Source: Acinetobacter zhairuonensis
GTDB lineage: Bacteria; Pseudomonadota; Gammaproteobacteria; Pseudomonadales; Moraxellaceae
Assembly (NCBI RefSeq): GCF_022601715.1
Contig: NZ_JAKVIM010000003.1
Coordinates: 62,001 to 126,000 of the forward strand
DNA length: 64,000 nucleotides
Direction of reading: 5' to 3'
This document shows, piece after piece, positions 50,704 through 54,421 of this stretch; within the stretch, counting starts at the first letter, position 1; each line of letters opens with the position of its first letter. The translations under genes were made by a program, and so were the position numbers. The notes beneath the pieces were generated by a model that was given only the letters and a program-made list of their open reading frames with translations, was not told where the DNA came from and made no database searches.

Positions 50704-51168
50704 TTATCGATTTAAGTTATTGAAAATATGTTTTAGGCTATCCATCATTTTTTCAATTTGAAGTGGAGTTAAGCCTTCAAAGGATTGCTCCAACACAGCA
50801 CTGGTTAAGTCATTAATCTTATGCGCCATCTCATGTCCTTTATCTGTAAGTACCACGCGCGTGATACGTGCATCATCTTCACATGAGTAGGTGTTGACTA
50901 AGCCTTCATCTTTTAGGCGATAAACAATTTTGGTGGTTGTAGACATTTTGGACACAACCATGTCTGAAAGATCAGAGACGCTAGCATTTGGTTTAGATTT
51001 TAATGCAATTAAGATGCGACGACGAGAATTATCCAAGCCATACTTTTTGAGGACCTGATCGACCTTTTGTACATGCTGCGAATAAACCTGTGTTACCCAG
51101 AAAAAAGGAAAGTTGTCTAGGCTGAAGTCATCAGTTGTAGGTAAAAATTTCGCATACTTTTTAGTCAT
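50704..51168 (-). CDS. MarR-family transcriptional regulator
   Basis: A 154-residue winged-HTH regulator. The recognition region reads ASVSDLSDMVVSKMSTTTKIVYRLKDEGLV, followed by the wing with the DDARITRVVLTDKG motif. The dimerisation helices lie at both ends. It faces a 690-base AT-rich region that leads to the TerC-type gene. Nothing identifies its ligand or targets. Confidence 0.88.
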   Translation of the reverse strand: MTKKYAKFLPTTDDFSLDNFPFFWVTQVYSQHVQKVDQVLKKYGLDNSRRRILIALKSKPNASVSDLSDMVVSKMSTTTKIVYRLKDEGLVNTYSCEDDARITRVVLTDKGHEMAHKINDLTSAVLEQSFEGLTPLQIEKMMDSLKHIFNNLNR

Positions 51169-51860
51169 ATGTGATTCCCGTCATTTATTTTTATATTGCT
51201 TAATTTTATGAGAAATATCTCGCAATAGGCAATATAACTGTGATGAAATAGTCAATTAGAAATCAACAAGATGTGTATTTCTATTTAAATATGACTAAAT
51301 CGTGTTCCTTAAAGTGCTGATTTAAAGATGTTAATTTCAATAAGCACTGCTATGATTTAGGTCATTGTTTTGTGTGGATTGAGCTGAAGTTTAATGGGGT
51401 TATATTGCTCGCAGCATCAAATCCTACACGTGAAATTAGTTAGGATAAGCAATTCAATTAATTTAAATATGTTTAAAAAATGATCTGCAAATCCATTTGA
51501 GTGTTCATTTTAGTGAAAAAAAATCATTTGAAAACTCTCTTTGTTAACTAAACTTAACTGATGCGACTACCATCAGAAATAAAAATTGACACATTAATCA
51601 TTTAAATATTTATGTATAACAAAGCTTTATTGTGATGTAGTTCCTATTTAAAATAATCAAAAAAAATTGTGACTGCTCGGTTTTTTAGTTTTGTTACAAT
51701 CAATTTGGTCAATGTACTTGAATTGTATCCATTGATGATATTTTAATCTCTTCTTAAAATCAAATGTAAATTTATGATTTGTAAAAAAATTAAAAAAAGT
51801 AATTACAAAATGGAGAGAGTATGCATAATAAAACAATCTATTGTCGAAAAGAGGTTTTAC
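51169..51860. other. Long AT-rich intergenic region
   Basis: About 690 bases between the divergent MarR gene and the leader ORF, far richer in A/T than the flanks and without a gene I can support. It presumably holds the promoters of both sides. The part near 51800 is the 5' leader of the TerC-type mRNA. Confidence 0.6.
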
Positions 51861-51929
51861 ATGGATCCGTCGCCGTGCAGGTCTAGCTTATTGAAATTAC
51901 GCCTTGAGTTATTTGAGGTGGGTAAATAA
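51861..51929 (+). CDS. Leader peptide (uORF) of the TerC-type gene, begins MDPSP
   Basis: A 22-codon frame with the strong site AGAGG six bases before its ATG. The peptide reads [18 protein letters not shown] and then EVGK. Its stop TAA (51927-51929) overlaps the ATG of the downstream gene by one base (TAATG), and the downstream ribosome binding site GAGGTG lies inside the uORF. Translation of the two is therefore coupled. An N-terminal run of acidic residue and prolines is the feature of MgtL (MEPDPTP...), where it makes elongating ribosomes fall off at low Mg2+. By analogy this peptide may sense cation level for a membrane transporter. Coding status and function are inferred. Confidence 0.7.
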
Positions 51930-53461
51930 TGGAATTCTTATTAGATCCTGGAATTTGGGTAGGATTACTTACCTTAATTGTATTAGAAATTGTTTTAGGT
52001 ATTGATAACCTAGTATTTATTGCCATTTTGGCAGATAAACTTCCACCAGAACAACGTGATAAAGCACGTGTTATTGGTCTTTCTCTCGCATTAATTATGC
52101 GCTTAGGACTATTGTCCGTGATCTCTTGGTTGGTTACTTTGACCAAACCGCTTATCCAAATTGCCGATTTATCCTTTTCGGGGCGTGATTTGATTCTGCT
52201 CTTTGGTGGACTGTTCCTTGTGTATAAGGCTGTTACCGAATTGCACGAAAAAATGGAAGGTAAGCCAGAAATTAAATCCACTTCATCTGTTGTATATGCG
52301 GGCTTTTGGGCTGTTGTTGCGCAGATTATTGTTCTGGATGCAGTTTTCTCACTAGATTCAGTCATTACCGCAATTGGTATGGTTGATAATATTTATGTGA
52401 TGATGGCTGCGGTGACCATTGCAGTTATTGTGATGCTATTTGCATCCAAGCCATTAACCAGCTTTGTAAACCGTCATCCAACGGTGGTCATTCTGTGTTT
52501 AAGCTTCCTATTATTAATCGGGATTAGCCTGATAGCTGAAGGTTTCGGATTCCATATTCCGAAGGGTTATATCTATTCGGGTATTGGTGTAGCAATTCTG
52601 ATTGAAGCTTTTAATCAGTACTCAAAACGTAATGTAGCTAAACATGAATCTAAGATTCCTTTGCGCCATCGTACTGCAGACTCTATTTTAAAGCTCATGG
52701 GTGGCAAAGTTGAGTCATCGCAATTGGGTGCTCAGCAAATTGAAGCACATGAGGCATTTGCGGCAGAAGAGCGCTACATGATTGGTGGTGTTTTGACTTT
52801 GGCAGAGCGTTCAGTTGCATCGATTATGACACCGCGTAATCTAATTTCTTGGATTGATTTAAACGATACGCCTGAAAAAATCCGTGAGCAGGTGCTTGCA
52901 GTGCCGCACAGTTTATTTCCAGTTTGCCGTGGCAGCTTGGATAAAGTCATTAGTGTAGTGCGTGCTAAAGAATTATTAGATGTGCTAGATGATGGTGAAG
53001 AAGAACTCAAGGCATTAATTAAGCGTCAACGTCCAATTTTCATTTTTGAGAAGATGAAAGTGATTGATGCGATTAATACCTTAAGAACGTCTAAGGGTTC
53101 ATTGGTTCTTGTAACAGATGAATTTGCCAATGTGAAAGGCTTAATTTCACCACTCGATGTTTTTGAAGCGATTGCGGGTGAATTCCCGGACGCAGATGAA
53201 CAGTTAGATCTGGTTAAAATTAACGATGAAACTTGGAAAGCTTCTGGAATGCTAGATTTGTATCAGTTGGAACTAGAACTGGGTATGCTGGATTTAGTTG
53301 AAGATGATGCAGGTTATATGAGTGTTGCGGGTTTACTTTTAGATAAAACCCAAGGCGATGTTCAAGTCGGAACGAAGTTGGATTATCAAGGTGTTCACTT
53401 CGAAGTGACGGAACTGGAAGATAATCGCATTAAATATGTCACGATTATGTATCGCCATTAA
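51929..53461 (+). CDS. TerC-CBS-CorC membrane protein (YoaE/YegH-like)
   Basis: An inner-membrane protein of 510 residues in three parts. The first is a TerC-like domain with seven helices (residues 1-235, motifs [16 protein letters not shown] and [16 protein letters not shown], whose acidic residues suggest a metal path). The second is a pair of CBS domains (about 290-420, [15 protein letters not shown]...[22 protein letters not shown]). The third is a C-terminal CorC/HlyC domain. The layout is that of E. coli YoaE and YegH. TerC relatives export Mn2+ and CorC relatives influence Mg2+/Co2+ efflux, so divalent-cation transport is a reasonable inference. It is preceded by a coupled leader ORF. 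Confidence 0.9.
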
Positions 53462-53473
53462 TTAAGTTTGTTA

Positions 53474-53501
53474 AAAAAAGCCCGAAAGTTCGGGCTTTTT
53501 T
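53474..53501 (+). terminator. Terminator of the TerC-type gene
   Basis: Stem AAAAAGCCCGAA / TTCGGGCTTTTT with an AG loop and T-run. It lies between this gene and the convergent hydrolase and could serve both. Confidence 0.9.
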
Positions 53502-53557
53502 ATTGAATAAAAAGTCCATCAAGTCAGATTGGAGTGTTGTGCAGCTTGATGGAAAAA

Positions 53558-54421
53558 CTAGTTGCGTAGCTGTTGTTCAATCACATCCCAAAGGTTGCAA
53601 TGTGATTTTCGGAACATCTGCATGTGTCCAATACTTTTATATTGAAACTGTTGAGGTATTAGCTCAATCATGGATGTTTCAGCATTCGGGTAAAGTTTGA
53701 GTAGCGCTTGTACATTGGATTGGGTGGCAATTTCATCATCAGAGGCCCAAATTGCTGTAATTGGGCAAGTGATTTGATCGTGATAGTTCGGTAGTTGTTC
53801 CTTTTTAACAGCATGCATGACATAACCTTGTGTCCCACAAAACTCAGCCCATTGTTTGGCAACTTTTTTAGGCAGGTTTTCCCCCATACCAATTATTTTG
53901 GTAGCACCAAATCCTTTTAGCTTGCTGGAGATTGGGAAAAGTAAATTGAACATGATTGGGGCGAGTAATTTGGTCTTGCCTTTCAAGCCATGTATATGCC
54001 CTGTAGAACCTGATACTGCAATCACTTTGGCAACCTTCGGGTAATTGGGGGAGATGCCAAGTAGCTGACCACCTGCACTATGACCCAGTAAAATGACTTG
54101 AGAAGCTTGAGTTTGTTCCAATAGGCAATCTATTGCAGCAGTGATATCGAGTTGTCCCCAATCGACAATACTGGCTTCAGATAGGTGTAATGGACCATGT
54201 AACGAGGCACCAATGCCTCTAAAGTCAAAGCTCATGACGCTATAGCCCATGCTACTCAGCCACTCGGCGTAGGAGTGATAGAATTCCTTAACAATACCTG
54301 TAGCAGGGCAGATTAAGATGGGTAGGGCTTTGTCGGAATTCACTTGGCTTGGGTAAAGCTTTGCACTTAATTTATAGCCATCCGCACAATGTATGTATAA
54401 GGATTTAACTTGAGTGTCCAT
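53558..54421 (-). CDS. Alpha/beta hydrolase
   Basis: A 287-residue cytoplasmic serine hydrolase of the alpha/beta fold. The nucleophile elbow is GHSAGG near residue 113. The likely Asp is in IWASDDEIA near 228, and the likely His is in SIGHMQMF near 267. SFDFRGIGAS near residue 69 is the usual strand after the oxyanion region. It resembles the predicted serine aminopeptidase/lysophospholipase-type hydrolases. The substrate is unknown. Confidence 0.85.
   Translation of the reverse strand: MDTQVKSLYIHCADGYKLSAKLYPSQVNSDKALPILICPATGIVKEFYHSYAEWLSSMGYSVMSFDFRGIGASLHGPLHLSEASIVDWGQLDITAAIDCLLEQTQASQVILLGHSAGGQLLGISPNYPKVAKVIAVSGSTGHIHGLKGKTKLLAPIMFNLLFPISSKLKGFGATKIIGMGENLPKKVAKQWAEFCGTQGYVMHAVKKEQLPNYHDQITCPITAIWASDDEIATQSNVQALLKLYPNAETSMIELIPQQFQYKSIGHMQMFRKSHCNLWDVIEQQLRN

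Follow-up and report, generated by a model that had tools for sequence, protein, structure and literature searches.

Genes of the TerC family are known to be controlled by the yybP-ykoY Mn riboswitch. Control through a short translated leader is exemplified by MgtL, which precedes a Mg2+ transport gene and carries an EPDP motif at which ribosomes drop off at low Mg2+; with EttA, a ribosome is held on MgtL with Pro3 in the P site (PMC11282234). The Pro codons of MgtL include codons 3, 5 and 7, TrmD is Mg2+-dependent, and CC[C/U] codons are listed as m1G37-dependent (PMC6335274). EF-P also acts on the alternating, non-consecutive Pro codons of MgtL (Pro 3, 5, 7 and 9; PMC6460261), and the leader works by Rho-dependent termination within 264 nt of leader RNA (PMC11282234, PMC6460261). 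In Salmonella, the 8-aa MgtQ lies before mgtB, between two genes of an operon, and its poor translation promotes mgtB expression (PMC8092293). CorL is treated in PMC11552253.

One of the closest described counterparts of the locus reported here is yoaE of Escherichia coli, known as mgpA in Salmonella. Its leader, yoaL, has 53 codons including the stop and overlaps the yoaE start by 13 nt, which bears out the statement in the original prediction that a coupled upstream ORF precedes yoaE. Translation of yoaE falls when the YoaL start codon is changed to a stop, a finding that PMC12421838 cites to Weaver 2019. In Salmonella, an mgpA/yoaE lacZ fusion rises at 10 mM Mg2+, at neutral and alkaline pH, and mgpA mutants behave as if they keep excess Mg2+ (PMC12421838). 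The same 2025 study describes the regulation of the gene as unclear and the signals acting through YoaL as still to be found, and it notes that a TerC relative in Bacillus subtilis is linked to Mn transport (PMC12421838).

The window analysed here is a stretch of 64,000 nucleotides from Acinetobacter zhairuonensis. Its leader ORF occupies 51861..51929 on the forward strand and comprises 22 codons, from the ATG at 51861 (opening codons ATG GAT CCG TCG CCG) to the stop TAA at 51927-51929. A ribosome-binding site, AGAGG, precedes it at 51850..51854 (forward strand), and that of the next gene, GAGG at 51915..51918 (forward strand), lies inside the leader, whose stop overlaps the ATG of that gene by one base (TAATG). 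The next gene (51929..53461, forward strand) encodes a 510-aa TerC-CBS-CorC_HlyC transporter in which Pfam models identify TerC and CorC_HlyC, with CBS at its cut-off; the protein shares 58% identity along its length with E. coli YoaE (MgpA in Salmonella), of which it is an orthologue. The original prediction had read this architecture directly from the sequence, namely a 22-codon ORF with an AGAGG site, a one-base stop/ATG overlap and an internal ribosome-binding site ahead of a TerC/CorC-type transporter of the yoaE family, and each of these elements was confirmed. By analogy with Salmonella, the transporter is a probable Mg2+ exporter. A likely terminator, read directly in the sequence as a GC-rich inverted repeat followed by a T run, lies at 53480..53495 (forward strand); the scan that gave the promoter below did not report it. 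Upstream of the leader and divergent from it, a 154-aa ORF at 50704-51168 on the reverse strand has, by eye, the look of a MarR-type regulator. A search of the leader's own genome for an MgtA-type importer gave no match above the family cut-off.

A promoter is predicted at 51802..51829 (forward strand), with a -35-like ATTACA, a 16-nt spacer and a -10-like CATAAT at 51824-51829. It matches 9 of 12 positions, with no extended -10 by the scan, which overall found 13 sites against 9.3 ± 3.1 in shuffled sequences and is therefore not evidence alone. Across relatives, 75 of 79 leaders have GCATAAT at a distance of 30-35 nt upstream of their ATG, against 2 of 234 control windows, and an AGG-type ribosome-binding site is found at -16..-4 in 78 of the 79. 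Transcription would thus start about 25 nt before the leader ATG, and leader and transporter probably share one mRNA with a short 5' UTR. An Rfam search of 51100-53700, up to E = 1, gave no match in the leader region. A riboswitch was rejected as an explanation: the six weak matches (best E 0.0028) all fall at 53341-53558, over the transporter 3' end and the terminator repeat, are below gathering scores and include no yybP-ykoY. Unlike genes under the yybP-ykoY riboswitch, the locus has no such element by Rfam, and a 5' UTR of about 25 nt would be too short for one.

Conservation was examined in the best 80 of 90 confirmed related loci, 77 of which are titled Acinetobacter; the window shows 99% identity to one of them, from A. 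kanungonis (L007), and two MAG contigs labelled Alcaligenaceae/Pelistega (L071 and L079) may be mis-binned. The leader is present in 78 of the 80, as MDPS in 77 and MAPS in one, giving 79 leaders with that of the window. The two remaining loci are a second copy (L046), the first copy of that strain (L067) having the leader, and an Agitococcus locus (L077), where the overlapping uORF is another one, MCSDRPCRFW... Measured from the transporter start as assigned, the leader stop lies at +1 in 59, -2 in 18 and -1 in 2 of the 79. Three of these starts (L052, L064 and L084) were assigned 3 nt downstream of another possible ATG, use of which would place the stop at +1 in L052 and L064 and at +4 in L084, where the upstream ATG is the likelier. 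The end position therefore stays put while the length (20-27 aa), frame and sequence of the leader drift. In the A. baylyi type strain (L076) the leader reads MDPSPCRLFCC... The MAPSP leader, from Acinetobacter silvestris, is the sole one of its kind among the 79 and a natural D2 variant; the aligned transporter start there is GTG, not ATG. When 29 genomes of relatives were scanned with the leader pattern, 12 of 19 same-genus genomes gave one match each, which in all 12 cases read as the leader, and other genera gave two matches; a reversed control pattern gave eight, one of them in the same genus. Among 66 same-genus genomes with a match, 32 have the orthologue at no less than 75% identity and the others have the paralogue only. 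Lack of conservation of the ORF and its Pro codons had been named in advance as an outcome that would count against the leader; its retention in 78 of 80 loci speaks the other way. The expected conservation of MDPSP and of the overlap held for the MDPS opening and the overlap, and less strictly for the fifth residue, which is Ser or Gln in 10 of 56 distinct leaders. We accordingly take M-D-P-S as the core.

The first five codons (51861..51875, forward strand; M-D-P-S-P) differ from the rest of the leader in how they have changed. Changes were inferred as Fitch counts, with arbitrary resolution of ties, on a single FastTree tree of the transporter proteins. Codons 2-4 together show 18 synonymous changes and one non-synonymous change (6/1 at codon 2, 11/0 at codon 3 and 1/0 at codon 4), D2 and P3 accounting for 17 and one of these, and codon 5 shows 2/7. 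Codons 6-14 sum to 41 synonymous and 261 non-synonymous changes, a count that is inflated past about codon 6 since indels leave those codons not strictly homologous; small insertions and a frame shift after codon 6 were seen by eye in some leader groups. Codon choice was tallied in 56 leaders distinct in their first 30 nt, with the A. silvestris leader left out. Codon 2 is GAT or GAC, every one of the four Pro codons occurs at codon 3 (CCG or CCC in 48 of 56), TCG occupies codon 4 in 55 of 56, and codon 5 encodes Pro in 46 (CCG in 43 of these), Ser in six and Gln in four. These codons are uncommon in the surrounding genes: TCG makes up 9% of Ser codons, and CCG and CCC 16% and 7% of Pro codons, in 41 ATG-started ORFs of at least 200 aa from the window, taken without individual curation, and the corresponding values in 80 transporter genes are 11%, 22% and 7%. 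The opening block is therefore rich in uncommon codons, which either slow decoding or mark a constraint on the RNA. The purifying pattern at codons 2-4 supports, at the level of sequence, selection of M-D-P-S as a peptide, with the remainder free except for its end position. The near-fixation of TCG at codon 4 could equally reflect a constraint on the peptide or one on the codon or RNA. A link to the m1G37-dependent CC[C/U] codons was considered and set aside as a poor fit in Acinetobacter, where CCG prevails at P3 and P5.

The resemblance to MgtL that the original prediction proposed is found in the peptide and is absent from the architecture. Both leaders are short, precede a gene for Mg2+ transport and have an acidic residue 2 followed by Pro3 and Pro5, so that D2, P3 and P5 of the window leader fall in the alternating register of MgtL; it is the milder of the two, with one acidic residue, two spaced prolines and no Pro7. 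Whereas MgtL acts within a long leader RNA by Rho-dependent termination, the window leader ends in a stop/start overlap, and a long leader RNA with alternative stems or Rho attenuation does not match a locus in which the inferred transcription start lies about 25 nt before the ATG and the gene overlaps the leader. The expected sign also differs: an importer is switched off once MgtL has been completed, but a completed window leader should, by analogy, switch an exporter on. MgtQ is comparable in being a tiny ORF with an acidic residue 2 that affects translation of a downstream Mg2+ transporter through structure at its ribosome-binding site; it differs in that an importer lies downstream, and the Discussion of PMC8092293 describes no stop/start overlap. 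YoaL, like the window leader, is a uORF overlapping the start of the orthologous gene, although it has 53 codons and a 13-nt overlap against 23 codons (both counted with the stop) and 1 nt, and its peptide, MDRHRRHFSIRPF.. (MDRHRRHFS..), has no early Pro motif. BLASTP of YoaL against the window leader produced no alignment at E ≤ 100, so that peptide homology between the two was not found, and no NCBIfam model matched either peptide at E ≤ 1.

Predicted folds point to an open leader start and a closed transporter start. In the window, an 8-bp hairpin at 51900..51920 (forward strand; MFE fold) pairs the transporter Shine-Dalgarno (SD) sequence, GAGG at 51915-51918, with an upstream part of the leader, as is predicted for the window's clade; elsewhere the transporter SD and start are often paired with transporter codons 5-8, and the folds vary between species. 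Opening the start region in predicted transcripts costs 10.3 kcal/mol at the transporter against 6.2 kcal/mol at the leader (9.4 against 5.7 kcal/mol in the window), and the cost is greater at the transporter start in 74 of 79. Leader ends and transporter starts were then exchanged among species in 5000 permutations. Among 28 representatives the native junctions folded at -12.11 kcal/mol and the swapped ones at -10.61 kcal/mol, a value that 0 of 5000 permutations reached; for the full set of 79 the values were -11.95 and -10.53 kcal/mol (0 of 5000). Opening of the start region cost 7.76 kcal/mol for native and 6.33 kcal/mol for swapped junctions (1 of 5000). The swap z score was -3.8 at the real junction against -2.3 to +1.26 at 24 control cuts inside the gene, of which 17 were negative and five below -1.5, so that some bias stems from relatedness by itself; at the start of the leader it was +3.08, that is, less structure than expected. 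These sequence-based models support an open leader start and a transporter start closed by RNA structure, which has evolved together with the leader 3' end. A pairing of GGATCC in the leader with GATCC codons of the transporter was discarded, as leaders with GGACCC were seen by eye to be without matching changes. An open leader, a locked gene and a ribosome terminating on the lock are what translational coupling needs, and we regard such coupling of the transporter to the leader as highly likely.

A second YoaE-type paralogue, 48% identical to the window transporter, is encoded elsewhere in the same genome (L002, at G000:C11:15820-17370). Its coupled leader of 44 aa, MSRGCCHIRRTHIF.., reads MSRGCCHIRR.. 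and lies at -131..+4 of the start at L002:1492. Paralogue leaders in Acinetobacter were coupled in all 27 loci read (of 66 same-genus places), a count obtained with a pattern written after those sequences had been seen. They are mostly M[SG]SG[CS].. peptides of 38-50 aa, with the stop at +4 in 22 of 27. The paralogue leaders (MSSGCCRS..) and E. coli YoaL are without the early acidic/Pro motif, so that coupling as such can do without it.

Coupled leaders also occur in a sister family within the order, probably Pseudomonadaceae (f21; loci L086, L087, L200-L228 and L233-L261). The transporter was matched over most of its length at E ≤ 1e-110 in 61 of 119 genomes, and 56 of the 60 loci read carry a coupled leader, with the stop at -5..+17 in 53 and at -25 or -26 in three. 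One locus scored as a miss (L228) has a frame with SEPPSRSS that runs to just before the gene from a start outside the searched stretch. The leaders were chosen by an M[DNS][SHTNA] start, so that a count of acidic residues in them is biased; examples are MDSDSCKPPPA, MSSDRSEPPPA, MNTLSEPPSR and MDSQSTTPTP..GEPPPA. Of the 49 distinct leaders, 38 have Pro-Pro within their first 12 residues; codon shuffling gave 10.2 (sd 2.6, maximum 20 in 500), and the other frames 12 and 3. By these two controls, chance uORFs in GC-rich sequence were rejected. With early acidic residues and, often, Pro-Pro(-Pro), these leaders are natural candidates for EF-P dependence. The leader of one locus (L253), MDSDSSKPPSPCRP, includes the PSPCR of the Acinetobacter leader.

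The leader is, on comparative grounds, real and conserved, and ahead of a probable Mg2+ exporter it appears to combine coupling of the YoaL type with an N-terminus like that of MgtL. The explanation we favour, to which we give a probability of roughly one half, is a cis-acting leader whose completion is required for translation of the exporter, an MgtL-type sensor of opposite sign. A ribosome reaching the leader stop would melt the structure and either re-initiate or let a new ribosome load on the transporter. Less certainly, fMet-Asp-Pro, with the uncommon codons TCG and CCG after it, would form a weak point in the first elongation steps, like EPDP in MgtL, which loses ribosomes at low Mg2+ or on failure of EF-P, EttA or m1G37 of tRNA-Pro. 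With little Mg2+, ribosomes would likewise leave the leader early, the exporter would stay locked and Mg2+ would be kept; at high Mg2+, ribosomes would reach the leader stop and the exporter would be made. The purifying selection, the MgtL register and the early Pro-Pro of the sister-family leaders suggest that the N-terminal peptide acts as an elongation checkpoint, a step towards which we incline slightly. Mg2+ is proposed as the main physiological signal because the phenotype and induction of the Salmonella orthologue point to it, and here our assignment is tentative. Equally provisional is the wider proposal that exporters of Acinetobacter and of the sister family (probably Pseudomonadaceae) share coupled leaders whose first 5-10 residues (DPSP or [E/K/Q]PP[P/S]) form a checkpoint sensitive to Mg2+, EF-P and tRNA-Pro, and so a positive, export-side counterpart of MgtL. 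Since YoaL and the paralogue leaders are without the motif, coupling and sensing may be combined differently in each branch. Other points that speak against the favoured explanation are the mildness of the motif beside that of MgtL, the MAPSP leader and the 10 of 56 leaders lacking Pro5, the near-fixation of TCG, the preference for CCG, the negative lean of control cuts in the swap test, the thirteen homologues in two other genera with no ATG-started coupled uORF, and the presence of the orthologue in 32 of the 66 same-genus genomes.

The open leader start, the locked transporter start and the overlapping, motif-free YoaL and MSSGCCRS leaders would be explained as well by plain coupling without sensing, in which the leader does no more than bring ribosomes to a locked start, and MDPS persists because it makes initiation or early elongation efficient. 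Conservation of residues 2-4 by purifying selection, combined with uncommon codons, is, however, the opposite of what fast early elongation would favour, and a bare coupling ORF would need no Pro-Pro as frequent as that of the sister family, which makes this account rather unlikely. It is a less than even prospect, though one to be taken seriously, that the leader logic is as proposed and that the signal is the state of tRNA-Pro, EF-P capacity, translation stress (including that caused by ribosome-targeting drugs) or Mn2+ in place of Mg2+. The early Pro-Pro of the sister-family leaders, the EF-P dependence of MgtL (PMC6460261) and the tie of the B. subtilis TerC relative to Mn transport (PMC12421838) all suit such a signal, against which stand the phenotype and induction of the Salmonella orthologue (PMC12421838).

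Two further accounts deny the peptide a role in cis. If the 5' block ATGGATCCNTCGCCG acted as RNA, as a structure or as a site for a protein or sRNA, then the prevalence of TCG (55 of 56) and of CCG at Pro5 (43 of 46), uncommon as both are in these genes, would be expected, as would the sharing of TCGCCGTGCAGG between the window leader and that of L253, where it recurs at another distance from the ATG. Yet the four Pro codons are all found at codon 3, where 11 synonymous and no non-synonymous changes were inferred, codon 2 switches repeatedly between GAT and GAC, and at the leader start native sequences fold less stably than swapped ones (z +3.1); we consider action as RNA improbable. That the peptide works in trans as a small protein would suit its good SD and the conserved promoter-like motif, but sequence, length and frame drift past residues 5-7, and we judge this very improbable.

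Among the open-licence papers listed, judged by titles and the starts of abstracts, we found no description of the Acinetobacter leader, and the 4 papers containing the string MDPSP were unrelated by title. The leaders form a natural series of variants (DPSP, EPPP, QPPP, KPPS and CCRS) in which the question of the YoaL signal is directly testable. They suggest a general design in which weak first codons and a stop/start overlap let ribosome state set how strongly an ion exporter is expressed. Should the wider proposal above hold, one kind of ribosomal sensor would read both the import and the export of Mg2+, with its sign reversed between the two.

The search for coupled uORFs covered ATG starts throughout. 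Thirteen homologues of the 16 listed (L163-L175, 54-57% identity), from two further genera in the family of the window, had no ATG-started coupled uORF, and the leader seems to have been lost from, or never present in, these genera. Elsewhere in the family, the leaders at L160/L077 (MCSDRPCRFW..) and L161 (MDNDPPSRQT..) overlap the transporter by 13 nt and end in ..WNF, the same geometry as that of E. coli YoaL, which ends in ..WNS.
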